38,217 nucleotides of DNA from a virus, in the IMG/VR virus record IMGVR_UViG_3300046001_006174, positions 1 to 38,217 of that record. One strand, written 5' to 3'. The position numbers and the translations under genes are program-made. The notes below the pieces were generated by a model. The model made no database searches. It saw only the letters and a list, made by a program, of their open reading frames with translations, and was not told the origin of the DNA. Below are positions 18,425 to 35,444 of this stretch, piece by piece (the first letter of the stretch is position 1; every line of letters starts with the position of its first letter).

Positions 18425-18552
18425 TGATGTTCGCCGTTTGTTCCTGTGGACGGGGAGAGTTTTCACTAGATGTAAACCGCAAAACCGTTCAGAATCAAGC
18501 GCGTAACCGGAGCGTTCGAACCGCCCCGGCTACGCTGTTCGCAACCACCTAA
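18421..18552 (+). CDS. Doubtful small gene before the helicase operon
   Basis: A frame of about 43 residues, with starts at GTG 18421 or ATG 18424 in a TGATG junction (MMFAVCSCGRGEFSLDVNRK). There is no family, and the later part is Arg/Thr-rich. It could equally be a promoter-containing gap, since a CCTAAAC element (18549-18555) occurs just before the next gene. Confidence 0.3.
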   Translation: MMMFAVCSCGRGEFSLDVNRKTVQNQARNRSVRTAPATLFATT

Positions 18553-18571
18553 ACCCCAGGTGATAACGACT

Positions 18572-18742
18572 ATGGGCAACGTACTTCGCCTTCCCCGGCC
18601 TATCAACCCCGTCACGACGGATGACCTTCTGCATTTCATGGCCACGATGGTCAGAAAGGCAGAGCGCGAGCCGGAAACCGCCGCGCAATCTCTGGACCAT
18701 GCCCGCCGCGCTTTTGACCGCATTGTCGAGCGCGTCGCATGA
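18572..18742 (+). CDS. Small hypothetical protein upstream of the helicase
   Basis: A 56-residue protein (MGNVLRLPRPINPVTTDDLL, then HFMATMVRKAEREPETAAQS). AGGTG lies 9 nt upstream of ATG 18572. Its stop overlaps the helicase start by ATGA. It may be a helicase-associated factor by position only. Confidence 0.65.
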   Translation: MGNVLRLPRPINPVTTDDLLHFMATMVRKAEREPETAAQSLDHARRAFDRIVERVA

Positions 18743-22391: not shown

Positions 22392-22576
22392 AGCGCTGCC
22401 TTGCCAAAGTCTCACCCCAAGACGCCCAATCCGCCTGCGAAGGCAAGGAGCGCTATGAGAGCCCGTTTCTGGCTCACAAGGTCGGCGCAAGGCGCAACCA
22501 GCGCGGAATAGCCATCAGCATCTATCGTTGCCCCCACTGCGGCGGCTTCCATCAAGGAAATAGGGAGCGGAGATGA
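22388..22576 (+). CDS. Small Cys/His protein
   Basis: A 62-residue basic protein ending in YRCPHCGGFHQGNRE, a single CxxC with nearby His that suggests a zinc knuckle, after KERYESPFLAHKVGARRNQR. Proteins of this 'Y.CP.C...H..' kind are common in phages and are of unknown function. ATGA-coupled on both sides. Confidence 0.65.
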   Translation: MKRCLAKVSPQDAQSACEGKERYESPFLAHKVGARRNQRGIAISIYRCPHCGGFHQGNRERR

Positions 22577-23079
22577 CTAACCATTGGGTCAAGGGCATCA
22601 GCCGTGATCTGCTGCGCACGGCCTTCCGGGACTATTTCGGCATCTACGAGTCGTCGGCAACGCTGTTGGTCGAACTGTACCAGGCGGGGCGGGACGAAGA
22701 GGGCCTTAGCAACCCGGTCCCCGTCAAGGATCTCTGCTACCGTCTCTCGTCCCACCGATCGCTCAACGCTGGAGCCCTATACGAGCGGGTTAGGGTTCTC
22801 CGAGCCGCCATGTCGCCAGAAGCCATTGAGCAGGACAACTCAAACTACTGGCTGACTGACGTGGGCTTTGACGATGCCGCCGGGGCTATCAGGGACCTTG
22901 CCCGAACGCTGACGAAGGATTTCGTGGTCGAGAACATCACGCCCGCGCCCAAGGTGGTCAGCATACCTGCCAAGCCCAAGGTTCGCCAGCTCTGCGCCGA
23001 CACGCTCTTGCTCCCGTTCGGCCAGATCACCGAAGCCCTGTCATCGGCCGGCGTGATGCGGCTTACCGCAACGGCCTGA
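22573..23079 (+). CDS. Hypothetical DNA-binding-like protein upstream of the terminase
   Basis: A 168-residue protein, helical with a possible winged-helix layout (ESSATLLVELYQAGRDEEGL, PVKDLCYRLSSHRSLNAGAL, YERVRVLRAAMSPEAIEQDN). Late in the early right operon, it might be a transcriptional regulator. This is inferred from layout and position. Confidence 0.6.
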   Translation: MTNHWVKGISRDLLRTAFRDYFGIYESSATLLVELYQAGRDEEGLSNPVPVKDLCYRLSSHRSLNAGALYERVRVLRAAMSPEAIEQDNSNYWLTDVGFDDAAGAIRDLARTLTKDFVVENITPAPKVVSIPAKPKVRQLCADTLLLPFGQITEALSSAGVMRLTATA

Positions 23080-23123
23080 GACCAAGACCGCACGTGAGAT
23101 TATGTCCTCGGAGGACTAAGACC

Positions 23124-23309
23124 GTGACCCACCCTGAGTACCTTGAAGCCCACCACGCCAAGACCGAAGCCGCATTCACCCGCGTGAACGCCCTTCTAGG
23201 CTCTGGCAAGGCTGATGAGGCCAAGACCGCGCTAGAGGCCATGAGGACCGATCTGGACGCCTTGTGGGCTATTCGCAGGGAAGCGGCGAGCCGGGAGGTT
23301 GCGCCTTGA
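23124..23309 (+). CDS. Small helical protein before terS
   Basis: A 61-residue protein from GTG 23124 with GGAGGA about 10 nt upstream (VTHPEYLEAHHAKTEAAFTR, then DEAKTALEAMRTDLDALWAI). TTGA-coupled to the small terminase gene. The function is unknown. Confidence 0.65.
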   Translation: MTHPEYLEAHHAKTEAAFTRVNALLGSGKADEAKTALEAMRTDLDALWAIRREAASREVAP

Positions 23310-25559: not shown

Positions 25560-25617
25560 CCGCAAGGTGCGGTATAAAGCACGAGTGGATGCATCACAGT
25601 GCGGATTATAGGCCGAA

Positions 25618-27414: not shown

Positions 27415-27426
27415 CCGCGCCTATCT

Positions 27427-27440
27427 GAGGCGCCCTAAAC
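27427..27440 (+). repeat. Late intergenic element, copy 1
   Basis: GAGGCGCCCTAAAC, an imperfect copy of the GCGCGGyCCTRARrC element, about 48 nt upstream of the ATC start at 27482. Confidence 0.4.
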
Positions 27441-27481
27441 CCCGGCCATAATCCGAGTGTACCCACCCGGAGGCAAACCCC

Positions 27482-28099
27482 ATCACCCACCTGATCGAAG
27501 ACGCCCCTTTCACGTACTGCCTAGTCCGTGACGAGTTCCTGTATGATCAGGCCCCCGAAAGGGTGGGGAGCTATACCGAGGCCTGCATAATCGGCGCTGT
27601 CGCGCTTGAGGGTCGCGCGCCGATGTTCACGGCGATGCTCCGCAACGGCGCTTTGTGGGCGAGGCTTCCGCTTCACGCCTTCACGTTCTCAGAGGGTGAC
27701 GCGCTTCCGCTTTCAACGCTATGCCTCTGGGACTGCCTGTCCTATGACGTGACGGTCCACCAATACGACTACCTGACCAGCCTTCGCGCGGACGTGTTCT
27801 GCGGCGATGGCGTCATGCGGTCGGGCGAGTACCTGTTCACCTGGGACTGGTGCAAGTCGAACTATTCCGAGATGCCCGACCAGCACAAGCAACATCATTT
27901 CATCAAGCTGGACACCGGCCACGTCGCGGCGATGCCTGGCAACCGGCTTCGCTGGCATGAGCCGAGCTGGATCAAGCCATTTACCGAACGCCCGACCTAC
28001 AAGGTCGTCACCGACACATGGACGACGGAGCGCGAGAAGGCTCTGGTTGACGCTGACCGCTGGGCCTATGGCGTGCAGGCCGATGCTAACGCAGCTTGA
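27482..28099 (+). CDS. Conserved phage protein with apparent ATC start
   Basis: A 205-residue protein. The first standard start in frame is GTG 27563, but the frame is clearly coding upstream: HLIEDAPFTYCLVRDEFLYD begins just after ATC 27482, and this N-terminus matches a conserved phage family ('TxLxxxFPxxYCLVRxExLYD...'). A perfect GGAGG at 27469-27473 is 8 nt before ATC. The body contains LWDCLSYDVTVHQYDYL, then YLFTWDWCKSNY and NRLRWHEPSW. The function is unknown. Confidence 0.75.
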   Translation: MTHLIEDAPFTYCLVRDEFLYDQAPERVGSYTEACIIGAVALEGRAPMFTAMLRNGALWARLPLHAFTFSEGDALPLSTLCLWDCLSYDVTVHQYDYLTSLRADVFCGDGVMRSGEYLFTWDWCKSNYSEMPDQHKQHHFIKLDTGHVAAMPGNRLRWHEPSWIKPFTERPTYKVVTDTWTTEREKALVDADRWAYGVQADANAA

Positions 28100-28289
28100 G
28101 CCGACGCTTCCGGTCACGGTGGATGGAAAGGGGAAGGGCTTTGCCTTCGCCGTCATCGACTATGGGCAGGAGCACCACCTGATCTGGGTCGTCGCGCTCA
28201 ATGACACGGGCGAAATCTGGTCCGCGCCTAACCCGGAGGTAAGGGTTCAACCCAACTGGACCATGGGGCGAAGAGGCGCGCTCACCTGA
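28083..28289 (+). CDS. Conserved small phage protein
   Basis: A 68-residue protein from ATG 28083, overlapping the previous gene by 17 nt. Its end (HHLIWVVALNDTGEIWSAPN, PEVRVQPNWTMGR) is a recurring pattern in phage genomes upstream of portal genes. The function is unknown. Confidence 0.7.
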   Translation: MLTQLEPTLPVTVDGKGKGFAFAVIDYGQEHHLIWVVALNDTGEIWSAPNPEVRVQPNWTMGRRGALT

Positions 28290-28294
28290 GAGCC

Positions 28295-28313
28295 CCCTAG
28301 CGCGGCCCTAAAC
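28295..28313 (+). repeat. Late intergenic element, copy 2
   Basis: CCCTAGCGCGGCCCTAAAC. Its first 15 bases are identical to copy 3 at 30762. It lies 26-44 nt before the portal start. Confidence 0.6.
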
Positions 28314-28336
28314 TTCCCCTCACTCAACAGGGGAAG
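28313..28336 (+). promoter_or_regulatory. Hairpin burying the portal ribosome binding site
   Basis: CTTCCCCT (28313-28320) pairs perfectly with AGGGGAAG (28329-28336) around an 8-nt loop. The second arm is the Shine-Dalgarno for the portal ATG at 28339, so the mRNA can hide its own start. Confidence 0.65.
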
Positions 28337-28338
28337 TC

Positions 28339-30510
28339 ATGGCGGACGCCCAGACCACCACCGAACAGGCCGAAGCTGCGGCTAAAGCCAAGAAGGATCA
28401 ATCGACCGCCCAACGGTGGATCGGTGAACTTGGCGTGTCTGAGAAGGCTCAATCCAAGTGGCTGACCCGCGCCAAGAAGATCATCAAGCGGTACAAGAAG
28501 GAGGGCGTGGACGCTGAGACCGGCAAGCGCGGGTTCTCGCTGCTGTGGTCGAATACCGAGACCATCCGCCCCGCCCTCTACGCTCGCCCGCCGCAGCCCG
28601 TCGTTAGTCGCCGGTTCAAGGACGCGGACCCTATCGGTCGTTCGGTTTCCGAAGTGCTGGAGCGCTGTCTGTCGTTCAGCATTGACCGGCAAGCCCTGGA
28701 CGATGTTCTACGAGATGCGACCTTCGATTTCACGCTGATTGCCCGTGGTCAGGCGTGGGAGCGGTATGTCCCGACGTTTGGCGATGAGATCATCCCCCGC
28801 GTTGAGGTGCTGCAGCTCACCACCGATGCCGGTGTTGAGTATCGCGGCAAGGAAGATAACGAGCCCTACGAGGCCGACGACATCGAGGGCGATGAGGCGA
28901 ACGGCTACACGGCTCCCGGCGAGCCCTACCGCCCCGTCATCTTCGAACAGTCCGTTACCGATTATGTGAACTTCGAAGACTTCGGGTGTTCTCCGGCCAG
29001 AACGTGGAACGAGGTCAGTTACGTCTGGCGCGCGGCCTATCTGAGCCGTGAGGAACTGGTTGAGCGCTTCGGCGATGATCTCGGTAAGAAAATCCCGCTG
29101 GATTGGGGTCCGAAGGCTAACGGTGCTCGGGTAACCGATGCCGAGGAGATGACCAAGAAGGCCAAGGTCTACGAGATTTGGGACAAGACCTCGCGTCGGG
29201 TGTTCTGGATCTCCAAGGCTTGGGCCTATGCGCCGCTTGATGAGCGCGAAGACCCGCTAGGCCTCGATGACTTCTTCCCGTGCCCGAAGCCGCTGCTGGG
29301 GACCACGGCAAATGACAGCCTGATCCCGGTTCCTGACTATGTGTTCTATCAGGACCAGGCCGAAGAGATCGACGACCTGACGGGGCGTATTGGCGTTCTG
29401 GAGCAAGCGCTTCGCGTTAAGGGCTTCTACGCAGGCGACAAGAAAACCGACCTGAACCAGCTTTTCAAAGCTGACGACAACATGCTGATCCCGGTTGCGG
29501 ATTGGCAATCGCTGAAAGAGGGCGGGGGCCTTCAGGCGAAGATCGAGTGGATGCCGATCAACCAAGTTGCGGAGGCCCTCACAGCCTGCATCAACCTGCG
29601 CAAGCAACTGATTGAGGACGTCTACCAGATCACGGGTGTTGCGGACATCCTGCGGGGCGCTTCGGACGCGTCGGAGACCTATGGCGCCCAACGGATCAAA
29701 GCCCACTGGGGCGCGGTGCGGATCAGGGACCGTCAGCGGGAACTGGCGCGGTTTGCTCGCGACATCCTGCGCATCAAGGGTGAGGTGATCTCCGAAAAGT
29801 TCAGCATCGACACCCTGCGCCAGATGAGCGGCGTCAAGCTGCCGACCGACGCTGAGAAGCAGCAGATCATGTTGGAGATCCAACAGCAGGCCATTCTAGC
29901 CCAAGGACAGGCCCAGCAAGCGGCTCAGATGGGTCAGCCGCCCCCGCCGCCCTTCCAACCGCCCCCTGAGGTGCTGGACAAGCTCGACGACCCGTCGTGG
30001 GAGGATGTCGAGAAGGTTCTACGCGACAACGCCACACGGCAGTACCGGATCGACATCGAAACCGACTCGACCATTGAGCCCGACGAAACCGAGGACAAGC
30101 AGCAGGCTGTCGAGTTCATCACGGCAATGACCGGCTTCTTTGCCCAGGTCGGACCGATGGTGCAGGCTGTTCCGCAGTCGGGTCCGATGTTCGCTGCGAT
30201 GATCAAGTTTGCCGCTCGCCGGTTTAGGACGGGCCGCGAGCTTGAGGACATTATCGACACGACACTTGACCAGATGACCAAGAAGCCGCCGCAGGGAGAA
30301 GAGAAGACCCCTGAACCCGCGCCGGATACCACCCCAATCGTCGTTGCCCAGACTGAACAGCAGACGGAACAGATCAAGCAGGCTGGCGAGACTGAGCGGG
30401 CGATGATTGCGGCCCAAACCAAGGCGCAGGAAATGCCGCTTCGGGAGGCTGACCAGCGCATGAAGGCCTTTGCCCTGCAGACCGATCCCCAGCCCCAAGG
30501 AACCGCGTGA
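28339..30510 (+). CDS. Portal protein
   Basis: A 723-residue protein matching large portal proteins of alphaproteobacterial tailed phages. The N-terminal part contains LLWSNTETIRPALYARPPQP and VVSRRFKDADPIGR. The core has YQDQAEEIDDLTGRIGVLEQ and DVYQITGVADILRGASDASE. A C-terminal extension is Gln/Pro-rich (QPPPPPFQPPPEV) and helical. Twelve copies form the DNA channel at one capsid vertex and hold the terminase. The position between terL and scaffold/capsid fits. Confidence 0.9.
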   Translation: MADAQTTTEQAEAAAKAKKDQSTAQRWIGELGVSEKAQSKWLTRAKKIIKRYKKEGVDAETGKRGFSLLWSNTETIRPALYARPPQPVVSRRFKDADPIGRSVSEVLERCLSFSIDRQALDDVLRDATFDFTLIARGQAWERYVPTFGDEIIPRVEVLQLTTDAGVEYRGKEDNEPYEADDIEGDEANGYTAPGEPYRPVIFEQSVTDYVNFEDFGCSPARTWNEVSYVWRAAYLSREELVERFGDDLGKKIPLDWGPKANGARVTDAEEMTKKAKVYEIWDKTSRRVFWISKAWAYAPLDEREDPLGLDDFFPCPKPLLGTTANDSLIPVPDYVFYQDQAEEIDDLTGRIGVLEQALRVKGFYAGDKKTDLNQLFKADDNMLIPVADWQSLKEGGGLQAKIEWMPINQVAEALTACINLRKQLIEDVYQITGVADILRGASDASETYGAQRIKAHWGAVRIRDRQRELARFARDILRIKGEVISEKFSIDTLRQMSGVKLPTDAEKQQIMLEIQQQAILAQGQAQQAAQMGQPPPPPFQPPPEVLDKLDDPSWEDVEKVLRDNATRQYRIDIETDSTIEPDETEDKQQAVEFITAMTGFFAQVGPMVQAVPQSGPMFAAMIKFAARRFRTGRELEDIIDTTLDQMTKKPPQGEEKTPEPAPDTTPIVVAQTEQQTEQIKQAGETERAMIAAQTKAQEMPLREADQRMKAFALQTDPQPQGTA

Positions 30511-30767
30511 TGTCGCAGCAGGGTTTGCGCCAAGCGAGCGTTCGCGCCGTAACCGGAACGGCCAGCAGCTATGAGGGCGACTGGCACAAGCTATTCGATG
30601 CCTCTTCGATCCCTGGCGGCGAGTTCAATGGCCGGTTGCTGGCTTGGATAAATGCCAAGCTCGCGAAATCCTTCACCGAACTGAACGGCGCCATGCAGGC
30701 CCTGGCTGTGGCGAATGGCGCGTGGGATTTCGCGTCGATGGGAACGTTTAACGCGACCGTTCCCTAG
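30510..30767 (+). CDS. Small structural-region protein
   Basis: An 85-residue protein from ATG 30510 in a TGATG junction with the portal (ASSYEGDWHKLFDASSIPGG, EFNGRLLAWINAKLAKSFTE). It is probably a conserved head or neck accessory. The function is unknown. Confidence 0.65.
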   Translation: MSQQGLRQASVRAVTGTASSYEGDWHKLFDASSIPGGEFNGRLLAWINAKLAKSFTELNGAMQALAVANGAWDFASMGTFNATVP

Positions 30768-30781
30768 CGCGGCCCTGAGAC
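30762..30781 (+). repeat. Late intergenic element, copy 3
   Basis: CCCTAGCGCGGCCCTGAGAC, spanning the stop of the preceding gene and 49-68 nt before the ATG at 30830. It shares 15 identical bases with copy 2. Confidence 0.6.
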
Positions 30782-30829
30782 CAGCCGAAAGCAACCTATT
30801 CTAAAGCCTAAGATCGCTGGAGCCTCGTT

Positions 30830-31099
30830 ATGACGTACATCGTTCATGAGTTCGACACCAACCCCAACGCCCAGAACGAACTGCTCTGGCCTGCCGCTCG
30901 CGAGAGTTCTGGTCTGACGGCTGGTGCGAGCTACGACACCGCCGCGACCACGCGCGCCGTGGTGATCACCTCCGACGAGGATGGCCGGGTCAGCTTGGGT
31001 GGTGTTGCTGCGACGGCTTCGCACAACCCCGTGATCGCGCTCACTGAGAACATCTTCCTGTTCCCGTCTCCCGCCATCCGAACGCTGAAGTTCCTGTAG
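30830..31099 (+). CDS. Small beta-rich structural-region protein
   Basis: An 89-residue protein (MTYIVHEFDTNPNAQNELLW; ASYDTAATTRAVVITSDEDG; HNPVIALTENIFLFPSPAIR). It is Thr/Ala-rich and beta-prone, like small virion proteins. A structural role is inferred from position. Confidence 0.6.
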   Translation: MTYIVHEFDTNPNAQNELLWPAARESSGLTAGASYDTAATTRAVVITSDEDGRVSLGGVAATASHNPVIALTENIFLFPSPAIRTLKFL

Positions 31100-31106
31100 G
31101 CTCACC

Positions 31107-31775
31107 GTGAGCGATCTTACCTATGATCAGCTAAGCGCCACGGCGACCATTGCGGACGCTGATCTTCTGGCCGTCTACGTTATATCAGACAGCCTGCTGA
31201 AGAAGATCGACTACGGCAGCTTCAAGACCGTCTTCGCCGGTTCGCTGACGAGCATCTTCCTGTCTGCCGCTAGCAACCTGTCGGACGTGGCCAGCGCGTC
31301 GAGTGCGCGGGCTAACCTGGGGCTTGGCACGGCTGCGGTTCTGGCGGCGTCTGGGGTGTTTCAAGTCGCCAACAACTTCAGCGAAGTTGCCAACGCGGCG
31401 GCGGCGCGGACCAATATCGGCGCAGCGGCTTCGGACGCCCCGACCATCACCAGCGGCATGACGTTTTCCGGGGCGGCGAAACAAAATGTTCAGGCCGTCG
31501 CCAGCACGTCGATTGATGTTTCGATTTCTGAGTTTCAAACCAAGGCGATCAGCTCGAACACCACGTTCACCTTCACGGGCGCAACGTCCACCAAGGGGCA
31601 GGGCTTTCTGCTCAAGCTGACCATCTCCAGCGCCGCAATTCCGACGTGGCCAGCTTCGGTGAAGTGGGAGGGCGGGATTGCGCCCATCCTCGCAAACGGC
31701 ATTCACTGGCTGTCGTTCCTGTCCGACAACGGAACCGACTGGTACGGATCTATCTACGGGTCCGAATACGCATGA
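31107..31775 (+). CDS. Tail-fibre-like protein
   Basis: A 222-residue protein from GTG 31107. It carries the fibre repeat 'NLSDVASAxxARxNLGLGTAA' (ASNLSDVASASSARANLGLG) and a second degenerate copy (NFSEVANAAAARTNIGAAAS), typical of tail-fibre and base-plate appendage stems. A beta-rich C-terminus follows (SSNTTFTFTGATSTKGQGFL). It is ATGA-coupled to the next appendage gene. Confidence 0.8.
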   Translation: MSDLTYDQLSATATIADADLLAVYVISDSLLKKIDYGSFKTVFAGSLTSIFLSAASNLSDVASASSARANLGLGTAAVLAASGVFQVANNFSEVANAAAARTNIGAAASDAPTITSGMTFSGAAKQNVQAVASTSIDVSISEFQTKAISSNTTFTFTGATSTKGQGFLLKLTISSAAIPTWPASVKWEGGIAPILANGIHWLSFLSDNGTDWYGSIYGSEYA

Positions 31776-32551
31776 GGCGGTTCTTCGTCAGGGGCAGAGG
31801 GTATAGCTACCAGGCGCGAGCCCTATTCGCCCGCATGGCGGTTCAGCCGGATGCGACCCGCAAGCGCCAGATTGATCTCCTGATCCGCAGCCTTCTTGCG
31901 TCGGGCGTCTGGTACAAGCTGGACAAGCTGCATGTCTATGCGGCCCACACCTATCAGGCCTCCTTGCTCAACTGGGTCGGCACCAGCTACGCCCATTCGG
32001 TCGTCGGGACGATCAGCACGCTGTTTGTCACGGATCGGGGCTTCACTAGCCTTTCAACGACCAACTACATCGACACCAATTATCGGCCCGGCGTTGGCCT
32101 GAGCGCGGAAGATGATTTCTCCTGCGGCATGAAGGTGACGATCTCGCCGGGCGGGGCGGGTGTTAACGTCTTGGGCGCGGCGGACACTTCTGGGTATGGG
32201 GTGAGCCTAGAGTTGACCGCAGGCGGTTCAAACGCCGTCGCAAAGATCGGCCAGACGGCCTTGGCGGTCTTTAGTGTCTCGGCTGGGGACATTATGGGCA
32301 TGTCGCGAGATGCTGGAAATCCGAGGTCCTACAAAAACGGAGCGCCTGCGACGACGGGCGCTAGCGCGACCTTGGCGCCAAATTCAATAGACATTTTCGA
32401 GGGGTGCTTGAACGCCAACGGCACGCCATCCAATGGTGGTTCTGGGTGGCAGAACAGCGCCTCGTATTATGGTGCCAACCTGTCAGATACCGAGAACCTG
32501 GCGCTCTACAACGCTGTTTCTACCTACATGACAGCGGTTGGCGTTCCGTAG
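31772..32551 (+). CDS. Tail appendage / receptor-binding-type protein
   Basis: A 259-residue protein from ATG 31772. It matches a known phage appendage domain beginning 'ALFARMxVxPxxxRKxxIDxLIxxL...GVWxKLDxLxxxAAHxxQAxLLNW' (LFARMAVQPDATRKRQIDLL; KLDKLHVYAAHTYQASLLNW) followed by a lectin-like beta region (GFTSLSTTNYIDTNY ... LSDTENLALYNAVSTYM). These proteins are variable and host-facing. A receptor-binding role is likely, by family and neighbours. Confidence 0.8.
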   Translation: MRRFFVRGRGYSYQARALFARMAVQPDATRKRQIDLLIRSLLASGVWYKLDKLHVYAAHTYQASLLNWVGTSYAHSVVGTISTLFVTDRGFTSLSTTNYIDTNYRPGVGLSAEDDFSCGMKVTISPGGAGVNVLGAADTSGYGVSLELTAGGSNAVAKIGQTALAVFSVSAGDIMGMSRDAGNPRSYKNGAPATTGASATLAPNSIDIFEGCLNANGTPSNGGSGWQNSASYYGANLSDTENLALYNAVSTYMTAVGVP

Positions 32552-32556
32552 GTTCC

Positions 32557-32571
32557 GCGCGCTCCTGAGAC
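32557..32571 (+). repeat. Late intergenic element, copy 4
   Basis: GCGCGCTCCTGAGAC, 28-42 nt before the ATG at 32599. Confidence 0.5.
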
Positions 32572-32598
32572 TAATGCGCAACGCCGCATAATGTCTTC

Positions 32599-32889
32599 AT
32601 GGCGACCTTTGTCTATCGCAACGGCGAACTGATCGAAAAGCACCTTGCTGAGCAGCAGGAGTGCAAACGATCTCCTCTCAGCGCGCCGATGATCTTCACC
32701 GACACCATGAGCCCTATCCGCTCAATGGCTGACGGCAAGATGTACGACAGCAAGTCAGCCTACCGGAACGGGGTTCACGCCAAGGGTTGTCGGATCGTGG
32801 GGAACGACCGACTTGACGCGCCTTCGGCAACGCCCCTGCCGCGCGCCGGTCACGACATCAAAAAAGCCATCCAACAACTGTCGAGCTGA
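32599..32889 (+). CDS. Conserved small phage protein upstream of the scaffold
   Basis: A 96-residue protein (MATFVYRNGELIEKHLAEQQ; SPIRSMADGKMYDSKSAYRN; GCRIVGNDRLDAP). The 'SMADGKMYDSKSAYR' motif is conserved in phage structural regions. It probably relates to head assembly. The function is unknown. Confidence 0.75.
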   Translation: MATFVYRNGELIEKHLAEQQECKRSPLSAPMIFTDTMSPIRSMADGKMYDSKSAYRNGVHAKGCRIVGNDRLDAPSATPLPRAGHDIKKAIQQLSS

Positions 32890-32899
32890 GGGACCAGCC

Positions 32900-33988
32900 A
32901 TGACCGAACTGAGCCTGCGAGAACAATTGACCGCCGCCATGTCGGGGGGCGATGAGCCTGCGCCTGCAGCGGCTCCTGTTGCCGCGCCAGAACCGCCTGT
33001 GGTGGCTGAAACGGTCCCGGCCGAGCCTGAGACCCAAGACCCAGCGGAAAAGCCCCTTGGCGCGCGTGATCGCGACGAGAGCGGCCGATTTGCCCCAAAG
33101 GCGGGCGATGCCCCCGCCGAACCCATTTCCGAGCCCGCTACGGCGGCGGAAGCGAACCCTCCCCCCGAGGAGCCCATTCGCATCCCGCCATCGTTGCCCG
33201 CAGCCCTGAAAGCCAAGTTCAAGGAATTGTCCCCCGAGTGGCGCGAAGCGTTCACGAAGCGGGACGAGGACGTGAATACGGCAAAGGCCCAGTGGGACAC
33301 GAAAGCCGCACGGCTCAACCGCCTGGACGAAATCATAGCGCCTCATAAGGACGCTTGGGCCGTGCAGGGACTGGATGACCACCAGGCCCTGACGCGACTG
33401 GTTGCTGCGGAGAAGGTCCTTCGCGAGACGCCAGCCCAAGGCATCCTCTATCTGGCGCAGTCGTATGGCGTGGATATCCGACAGCTTGTCGGGCAGGCAG
33501 GACAACCCACCACGGCCCCCGCGCCTCAGGTGGACCCGATGCTTCAGCAGGCTCTCGATCGCATCAAGACCTTTGAAGACACGTTGGCGCAGCAGACGCA
33601 AAGCCAAACCGACGCCCAGATGGCCTCGGCACAAGCCCAGATCAACGAGTTCGCATCCAAGCCAGAGAACATCTACTTCGACAACGTGAAGGACGATGTT
33701 GCTGATCGGCTTGGCTCCGGTAGGGCCAAAACCCTGCAGGAAGCCTACGAACAAGCTGTCTGGGCCTCGCCGGAAATCCGCCCCCTGCTTTTGCAGGAAC
33801 AAACGGCGGCAGTGGCCAAGAAGGCGGCGGAAGACGCAGCGCGCGCGAAAGCCAAGGAAGCGCACAAGGCTTCAGGGTCTGTCACTGGATCTCCGACACC
33901 CGGCGCAGGCCCGGTGAACGCAGGTCCGCGCCCCTCCCTTCGCGAAGAGCTTCTCGCGTCCGCCCAAGAGGCCGGCGTCAGGCTCTAG
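32900..33988 (+). CDS. Scaffold-like protein
   Basis: A 362-residue protein from ATG 32900. The N-terminal third is Ala/Pro/Glu-rich and disordered (EPAPAAAPVAAPEPPVVAET). A long helical region follows (DPMLQQALDRIKTFEDTLAQ), with a charged C-terminus ending LREELLASAQEAGVRL. Composition, and position immediately before the major capsid gene, identify an internal scaffold. The N-terminal SLREQLTAAM and C-terminal SLREELLASAQ resemble each other. Confidence 0.82.
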   Translation: MTELSLREQLTAAMSGGDEPAPAAAPVAAPEPPVVAETVPAEPETQDPAEKPLGARDRDESGRFAPKAGDAPAEPISEPATAAEANPPPEEPIRIPPSLPAALKAKFKELSPEWREAFTKRDEDVNTAKAQWDTKAARLNRLDEIIAPHKDAWAVQGLDDHQALTRLVAAEKVLRETPAQGILYLAQSYGVDIRQLVGQAGQPTTAPAPQVDPMLQQALDRIKTFEDTLAQQTQSQTDAQMASAQAQINEFASKPENIYFDNVKDDVADRLGSGRAKTLQEAYEQAVWASPEIRPLLLQEQTAAVAKKAAEDAARAKAKEAHKASGSVTGSPTPGAGPVNAGPRPSLREELLASAQEAGVRL

Positions 33989-34003
33989 AAAGAGACACCC
34001 ACC

Positions 34004-34972
34004 GTGCCCAGTCCCGGCCTTACCGAAATCGTCACCACGACCCTGCGCAACCGTTCGGGCGTTGTCGCCGACAACATGTCCAAGAACAACGCGCTGCTCT
34101 ACCGCATGAGCAAGCGCGGCAAGGTCAAGCCCGTCAGTGGCGGTCGCACCATCGTGCGCGAACTCGCCTATGCCGAAAACTCGACCTATCAGCGTTATTC
34201 CGGCTATGAGCTGCTGAACGTCTCGCCTTCGGACGTGATCTCGGCCGCTGAGTTCGACTGGAAACAAGCCTCTGTGGCTGTCACCATGTCGGGCTTGGAG
34301 CAAGCCCAGAACAGCGGCGCGGACGCGATCATCGACCTGCTGGAAACGCGGATCGAAGTCGCTGAAAAGACCATGCAGAACAACCTGTCGCAAGACATGT
34401 ATTCTGACGGCACCGCCTCTTCGGGCAAGCAGATCGGCGGCCTCCAACTGCTGGTGGCCGACACCCCGACCTCCGGCACCGTGGGGGGCATCAACCGCGC
34501 CTCCTATACGTTCTGGCGCAACCAATACTACAGCGGCGCCAGCGACGGCGGCTCGGCTGTGTCGGCCACGAACATTCAGAAGTATATGAATGTTCTCTAC
34601 CAGCGCACCGCCCGCCAGACCGATAAGGTCGATCTGATCATCGCCGATACGAATTATTACAATTTCTATCTGGCGAGCCTGCAGGCCATTCAGCGGATCA
34701 CCTCCGACGAGATGGGCCAAGCTGGTTTCCAGAGCGTCAAGTACATGGGCGCCGACGTGGTGTTCGACGGCGGCATCGGCGGCGGTTGCCCGTCGAACCA
34801 CATGTATTTCCTGAACACCGACTACCTCTATTGGCAACCCCACAAGGACCGCAACATGGTCCCGCTGGAGTCTGTCAACTCCCTGAACCAGGACGCGATG
34901 GTCAAGCTCATCATCTTCATGGGCAACATGACTGCTTCGAACCTGCAGCTTCAGGGCGTTCTGAAAGCCTGA
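34004..34972 (+). CDS. Major capsid protein
   Basis: A 322-residue protein from GTG 34004 with the pattern of HK97-fold capsid proteins of this phage group: TIVRELAYAENSTYQRYSGY then ELLNVSPSDVISAAEFDWKQ, an N-terminal helix (MSKNNALLYRMSKRGKVKPV) and MYFLNTDYLYWQPHKDRNMV near the end. It forms the icosahedral shell on the scaffold. It follows the scaffold gene directly and precedes a strongly translated small gene. Confidence 0.9.
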   Translation: MPSPGLTEIVTTTLRNRSGVVADNMSKNNALLYRMSKRGKVKPVSGGRTIVRELAYAENSTYQRYSGYELLNVSPSDVISAAEFDWKQASVAVTMSGLEQAQNSGADAIIDLLETRIEVAEKTMQNNLSQDMYSDGTASSGKQIGGLQLLVADTPTSGTVGGINRASYTFWRNQYYSGASDGGSAVSATNIQKYMNVLYQRTARQTDKVDLIIADTNYYNFYLASLQAIQRITSDEMGQAGFQSVKYMGADVVFDGGIGGGCPSNHMYFLNTDYLYWQPHKDRNMVPLESVNSLNQDAMVKLIIFMGNMTASNLQLQGVLKA

Positions 34973-34982
34973 CGACGCCAAA

Positions 34983-35006
34983 GGGGGCGGCAATCGTGCC
35001 GTCCCC
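34983..35006 (+). terminator. Strong hairpin after the capsid gene
   Basis: A 10-bp stem (34983-34992 with 34997-35006, one G-T wobble) has the tetraloop ATCG. No T tract follows. It may be a transcript-stabilising 3' end or partial terminator that raises capsid mRNA relative to downstream genes. Confidence 0.55.
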
Positions 35007-35030
35007 AACCCTCGATAAAAGGAGGCCCCC

Positions 35031-35321
35031 GTGGCTTCGACTTCTTCGGTCGTCTATGCGACCACCCCCGTCCTTGGCGTCGATCTGGACGACAAGTCCT
35101 CGACCCGATCCTTCAAACTGCTGACCACTGTGGCTGCGAGCGATGGCCGTCGTCACATCTACGTCCGCGCCTCGGAAGCTCTGGGCTCGGCTGACACCAT
35201 CAAGATCGGTGCGGCTGGCTCGGCTTCGTCGGACTCCGGTTCGGCTGGCTGGTCGGTTGACACGACTGGCGGCGTTGCTGTCGGCCAAAGCTTCTGGGCA
35301 AAGCGCACCGCCATCAACTAG
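35031..35321 (+). CDS. Small beta-rich protein after capsid (possible decoration protein)
   Basis: A 96-residue protein from GTG 35031 with a perfect GGAGG site. It is Ser/Ala/Thr-rich and beta-prone (MASTSSVVYATTPVLGVDLD; IYVRASEALGSADTIKIGAA). Its position directly after the major capsid gene and strong translation signal suggest a capsid decoration or stabilising protein. No family was recognised. Confidence 0.65.
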   Translation: MASTSSVVYATTPVLGVDLDDKSSTRSFKLLTTVAASDGRRHIYVRASEALGSADTIKIGAAGSASSDSGSAGWSVDTTGGVAVGQSFWAKRTAIN

Positions 35322-35345
35322 GCGGAACGACCTCTAACAGACGGG

Positions 35346-35374
35346 AAGGGCGGCTCTCACGGGTCGCCCTTTTT
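35346..35374 (+). terminator. Intrinsic terminator after the capsid operon
   Basis: AAGGGCG (35346-35352) pairs with CGCCCTT (35365-35371) and is followed by TTT. It ends the head-gene transcript. A repeat element and a new start region follow immediately. Confidence 0.8.
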
Positions 35375-35377
35375 CGC

Positions 35378-35392
35378 GCGCGGTCCTGAGGC
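35378..35392 (+). repeat. Late intergenic element, copy 5
   Basis: GCGCGGTCCTGAGGC, directly after the terminator and 53-67 nt before the ATG at 35445. A position right after a terminator is where a new promoter would be needed. Confidence 0.55.
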
Positions 35393-35444
35393 GGTCTGTG
35401 GCGGGGTGATGATGCTTCCTCAATAGCAGCTTGGGGAAGGTGCG

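Follow-up and report, generated by a model that had tools for sequence, protein, structure and literature searches.

How the late genes of a temperate phage are switched on is usually described, for lambda-type phages, in terms of one late promoter and antitermination. The phage DNA analyzed here raises the question of whether another arrangement is in use, since related sequences recur in the gaps between its late genes, and a first-pass annotation had proposed that they could be phage-specific late promoters, activator sites or RNA-processing sites. The window, by which we mean the whole 38,217-nt IMG/VR virus record, encodes an integrase, an Erf-like annealing protein and a DnaB-like helicase, and its late region comprises the small and large terminase, portal and major head protein genes; it thus belongs to a temperate tailed phage. 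Relatives were collected by scans with the portal, head and terminase proteins, with MCP identities of 77-86% to relatives L053-L060 and TerL identities of 55-73% to relatives L133-L142. No near-identical DNA was found in the phage collection searched. Portal relatives in GTDB genomes were limited to three distant alphaproteobacterial loci, and portal matches include Bradyrhizobium, Rhizobium and Ruegeria phages. From these phage relatives and the alphaproteobacterial contigs, we infer an alphaproteobacterial host.

The recurring element in the late gaps is real, and it proves to be bipartite: a GC-rich box, GCGCnnnSCTGAGRM, occupies the usual place of a -35 and is followed, after 15 nt, by a sigma70-type -10 hexamer, NATNMT, whose most conserved bases are A at -11 and T at -7. 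The full shape is visible from the relatives, and not from the single window. A search in related phages, which the first-pass annotation had suggested as a check, finds the element again upstream of orthologous late genes as GCGCnnnSCTGAGAA, 15 nt and a hexamer (CATCAT, GATACT or TATTCT), often followed by 6 nt and an ATG. In the window, left boxes start at 23066, 27415, 28276, 30765, 32555 and 35376, all on the + strand and all in late gaps, and we number the corresponding sites as late promoters 0 to 5. Six of the eight late gaps of at least 40 nt scored after gene X, a gene described below, hold a copy; the element is absent from the gaps 25560-25617 and 34973-35030. The latter, which separates the major head protein gene from gene 35031, contains a strong hairpin without a T-run (34983-35006, -21.3 kcal/mol).

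Late promoter 0 (23066-23103, +; box CCGCAACGGCCTGAGAC, N15, -10 GATTAT) precedes a gene with a GTG start at 23124 and the terminase genes, and the stop codon of gene X falls within its box. Late promoter 1 (27415-27452, +) joins box CCGCGCCTATCTGAGGC (27415-27431) through N15 to the -10 CATAAT (27447-27452). The gene that follows has an apparent ATC start at 27482 behind a GGAGG Shine-Dalgarno sequence, its first ATG/GTG/TTG lying 81 nt downstream (27563). Late promoter 2, before the portal gene (28276-28314, +), comprises box GCGCGCTCACCTGAGAG (28276-28292), N16 and the -10 TAAACT; its left box scores 14.0 bits, rank 5 of 76,402, its -10 scores 7.5 bits at a spacing of 16, and several relatives likewise carry the element upstream of their portal genes. 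A 9-bp hairpin (ACTTCCCC.../GGGGAAGT, 28312-28337, -14.4 kcal/mol) immediately upstream of the portal ATG at 28339 covers the Shine-Dalgarno-like GGGGAAG, and could control portal translation. Late promoter 3 (30765-30802, +; box TAGCGCGGCCCTGAGAC, N15, -10 TATTCT) stands before gene 30830, and in late promoter 4 (32555-32592, +; box CCGCGCGCTCCTGAGAC, N15, -10 CATAAT) the hexamer is followed by 6 nt and then by the ATG at 32599. Late promoter 5 (35376-35413, +; box GCGCGCGGTCCTGAGGC, N15, -10 GATGAT) stands before gene 35445. Just upstream of it lies a strong terminator-like hairpin with a T-run (35343-35374, +; -21.2 kcal/mol, z -4.4), as the first-pass remark that this copy follows a terminator had implied. 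The hairpin is not among the entries of a generic terminator scan of the window; by eye, L055, L057 and L058 have T-rich stretches after hairpin-like sequence at the corresponding position, just ahead of the promoter. The leader of gene 35445 contains, before the start codon, a CTTGGGGAAG-like sequence (35428-35441) that is common to the leaders in L055, L057, L058 and L059.

This architecture alters the repeat as it was first perceived, a single 15-mer in five copies, of which the recurrence holds and the register is partly wrong. The 15-mer as written, GCGCGGYCCTRARRC, is not enriched, with 24 matches at up to three mismatches over the whole window versus 24.5 expected. At zero or one mismatch it recovers only 30767, 32557 and 35378, but not copies 1 and 2. 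The CCTAAAC at 27433, taken as copy 1, falls within the spacer and not the box, whereas the proposed copy 2 ranks 153, versus 5 for GCGCGCTCACCTGAGAG, and shares bases with the spacer and with the -10 hexamer, TAAACT. The first-pass annotation had overlooked a sixth copy, at 23066-23103. The weaker CCTAAAC sequences reported near 18572 and 5337 lack the bipartite element, and neither is among the best matches of the refined model described below. The sequence before the small gene 18572, CACCTAAACCCCAGGTGATAACGACTATGG (18547-18576), has a short inverted repeat and a -10-like GATAAC; it does not match the late element, and could act in early control.

A model built from 14 sites in relatives places 30765 and 32555 above all 60 order-3 Markov shuffles of the window. 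We then refined this model with 42 unique sites in related phages, window data excluded, and the sites at 32555, 30765, 35376, 27415 and 23066 are its top five when every window position on either strand is scored. At 25.4 and 22.2 bits, the first two surpass the best score in any of 100 shuffles (17.0; the maxima average 10.0). The remaining three, at 12.9, 12.3 and 12.1 bits (third, fourth and fifth best; per-position p ~3e-6), are individually not significant over 76,000 positions, and draw their weight from the fact that all five top sites lie on the + strand at late gaps. A core pattern, CTGAG[AG][ACG]-N15-[CGT]ANNNT, has exactly five matches in the window (23076, 27425, 30775, 32565 and 35386, promoters 0, 1 and 5 among them), all on the + strand in late gaps, versus a mean of 1.05 and a maximum of 4 in 200 order-3 Markov shuffles. 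The corrected element thus withstands the comparison with shuffled sequence by which the first-pass annotation had proposed to refute it. As the core was defined post hoc from the sites, the window's included, the refined-model ranking is the cleaner test. Scanning IMG/VR with a strict pattern returned two loci only. L216 is an isolated strict-pattern match, probably due to chance, and AAGCTGGCCGCTGAGAA-type matches, found in several relatives at aligned positions inside a coding region, were dropped as coding coincidence. The element is undescribed in the open-licence papers searched.

The right half of the element was assessed in an alignment of all [CG]CTGAG sites with an intergenic downstream region, assembled with no selection for a -10 to avoid circularity. 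The 67 intergenic CTGAG sites on the + strand (the window's included) have A at offset 17 in 72%, A/C at offset 20 in 90% and T at offset 21 in 69%, with GC conspicuous at -14/-13; none of these features is seen in the 17 sites on the - strand or in the 204 in-gene sites. A and T at hexamer positions 2 and 6 are the -11A and -7T hallmark of sigma70, and here both stand at a fixed spacing from the upstream element. The alignment replaces a spacing test in which 15 nt was best in 40 of 62 left boxes, a test with some circularity, its -10 model having been built on pre-selected sites. The fixed spacing to a sigma70-like -10, the orthologous late genes downstream and the restriction to one strand give strong support to a late-promoter reading, as does the placement of copies after stop codons or a terminator. 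The conserved late-promoter family is real; its activity, and its use of sigma70, are what we infer from these features.

The distance between hexamer and gene suggests where transcripts would begin. The -10 ends exactly 6 nt before an ATG in 18 of the 42 sites in relatives; in another three the distance is 5 or 7 nt, a Shine-Dalgarno-like leader is present in 13, and eight belong to neither class by a simple rule. With a distance of 6 nt the expected +1 is the A of the ATG, predicting leaderless mRNAs at these 18 sites, and the window gene at 32599 is likewise predicted to be leaderless. Leaderless mRNAs are common in Caulobacter (375; PMC4117421). The RpoD promoters of Caulobacter carry a TTG -35 (PMC4287350), from which CTGAG differs.

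If the box replaces a -35, what might bind it? The first late promoter adjoins gene X (22573-23079, +), the last in the gene run after dnaB, which encodes a 168-aa predicted winged-helix protein and is a good candidate for a late activator. A tblastn search with window ORFs finds gene X in several promoter-bearing relatives, just before the first late promoter. An IMG/VR scan with the X alignment returned nine loci, three of them on new contigs (L233, L234 and L237), each with the element downstream of X, the copy in L233 being weak (12.0 bits). Across the 50 virus records searched, X is strong in eight promoter-bearing records, has weaker homologs in three (G423, G424 and G418) and is absent from 37, an absence that is not proof as some records are incomplete. 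The promoter-bearing records G002 and G003 are without X; they share a genome or sample prefix with the X-bearing G011 and G406, and could represent further fragments of those phages. X is found in promoter-bearing relatives covering that region, and not in 37 of 40 other phages; co-occurrence is incomplete because many relatives are fragments. It was not found in 385 alphaproteobacterial genomes, a scan without a positive-control genome and from which the true host may be missing.

Structure prediction gives X a winged helix with a core pLDDT of mostly 85-97. In Foldseek and VIA comparisons, the T4 MotA activation domain is at or near the top for X, tied with MarR, OmpR-type and ribosomal S19e folds, a tie that points to a predicted winged helix and not to MotA membership; the fold is too common to fix function. 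Pfam matches all fall below the cut-off (best Trans_reg_C, E 0.0071), a PDB sequence search gave no meaningful match, and PHROGs holds no family for X. In G005 (L243 238-1158), a single open frame covers both an X-like domain and an N-terminal part with a weak DUF1016_N match. Judged by its position, its co-occurrence with the element and its modeled fold, X probably binds the box. The earlier idea of an activator site is plausible where the left half of the element is concerned, and a candidate activator is encoded next to the first copy.

We consider it probable that host sigma70 RNA polymerase transcribes from the distributed late promoters and that the gene X protein activates them. Host polymerase carrying the housekeeping sigma would contact the -10 hexamer NATNMT, while the winged-helix X, expressed from the end of the run of replication genes, would bind the GC-rich box and recruit or stabilize polymerase, so that all late units would be transcribed in concert. 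Transcripts of several units would begin with the A of the ATG and be leaderless, and those of others would begin shortly before a Shine-Dalgarno sequence.

The alternative that survives best, though we judge it unlikely, is that the host alone reads these promoters, through a housekeeping or alternative sigma that takes CTGAG as its -35, X being a neighbor with another role. CTGAGA matches TTGACA at four of six positions and, with N16 to CATAAT, makes promoter 4 the sole sigma70-like match among the six promoters in a generic sigma70 scan; moreover, the link between X and the box is drawn from position and co-occurrence. However, the conserved box (GCGC plus SCTGAGRM) exceeds the length of a -35 hexamer, and X tracks the element among relatives. 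A lenient pattern has at most one match per genome in 385 alphaproteobacterial genomes (13 in total, reversed control 4), so within this sample, outside which the true host may lie, it is no general host promoter. We hold it very improbable that the sites are instead stoperator-like and silence late genes in the lysogen, with X as the prophage repressor. Such a role would suit a temperate phage with an integrase, and winged-helix proteins are often repressors; mycobacteriophage stoperators are likewise asymmetric, oriented with transcription and located in short gaps. Yet stoperators need neither a -10 at a fixed distance nor a fixed distance to an ATG, and the refined-model scan of the window found no copies in the early region. 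An RNA-processing or leader signal within a long late transcript, for which the first-pass suggestion of processing gained nothing in its favor, is hardly credible, for although copies occupy the gaps between cistrons, frequently just behind a stop codon, the A/T -10 pattern at fixed spacing, the 6 nt to the ATG and the terminator-like hairpin before copy 5 are promoter features. As for T7-like polymerase promoters, the window, which may be a fragment of its genome, has no unassigned ORF of polymerase size.

In place of the lambda-type arrangement, this phage group appears to rely on numerous small late promoters whose mRNAs are predicted to be leaderless; such mRNAs are common in the bacterial class of the presumed host. 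The group also offers a compact putative activator-promoter pair, a motif by which late genes of uncultured phages could be annotated, and a possible case of regulator-site co-evolution. The record G423, which encodes a distant X homolog, carries CCAAGCCTTTCCCTTGG twice before late genes (L238 6537-6553 and 16166-16182), in a register (CTTGGNN, N15, CATCAT, 6 nt, ATG) that matches that of the CTGAG box. In G418, with a weak X homolog, five copies of a palindrome like CATATTCYGGAATATG are spread across the late region (L241 5125-18016; L076 265-280 and 7102-7117), possibly as that phage's own regulator site. These divergent boxes hint at activator-box co-evolution as a lead, the two G423 copies being thin. 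More tentatively, and with some doubt, we propose a temperate phage family in which a one-domain winged-helix activator replaces the -35 contact at separate promoters, many of them starting on the AUG, and in which activator and box diversified together.

The late system proposed here resembles others in which a phage activator replaces the -35 contact, with membership established in none. At T4 middle promoters, MotA/AsiA sigma appropriation uses an activator box at about -35 to -26 in place of the -35 contact and keeps the sigma70 -10, the MotA box being (t/a)TGCTTtA at 12 +/- 1 bp upstream of the -10 (PMC2988021, PMC6755090). As here, there are several promoters per phage, and the T4 MotA activation domain resembles the X model (PDB 1bja rank 1 for the first model, BFVD rank 1), tied with unrelated winged helices. 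Unlike the MotA box, the element of the window reads GCGCnnnSCTGAGRM with 15 nt to the -10, and it lies before late rather than middle genes; X is predicted to be one winged helix, with no MotA C-terminal domain seen. OmpR/PhoB-type activators share the predicted winged-helix shape of X, with ToxR aligning over 74-77 columns at 2.0-3.6 A and AfsR over 80 residues at Z 9.6. Activation of the PhoB/AfsR type works through sigma region 4 where the -35 is degenerate, which is the same logic as proposed for X. Unlike these proteins, X is without a receiver domain, and its Trans_reg_C match is below the Pfam cut-off. The Caulobacter GTA activators GafY/GafZ likewise serve an alphaproteobacterial phage-like late cluster through RpoD and a degenerate -35 (PMC11150451). 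Compared by description, GafY binds far upstream, needs IHF and acts on a GTA cluster with one main promoter (PMC11150451), whereas the box in the window abuts the promoter and is repeated before many genes.
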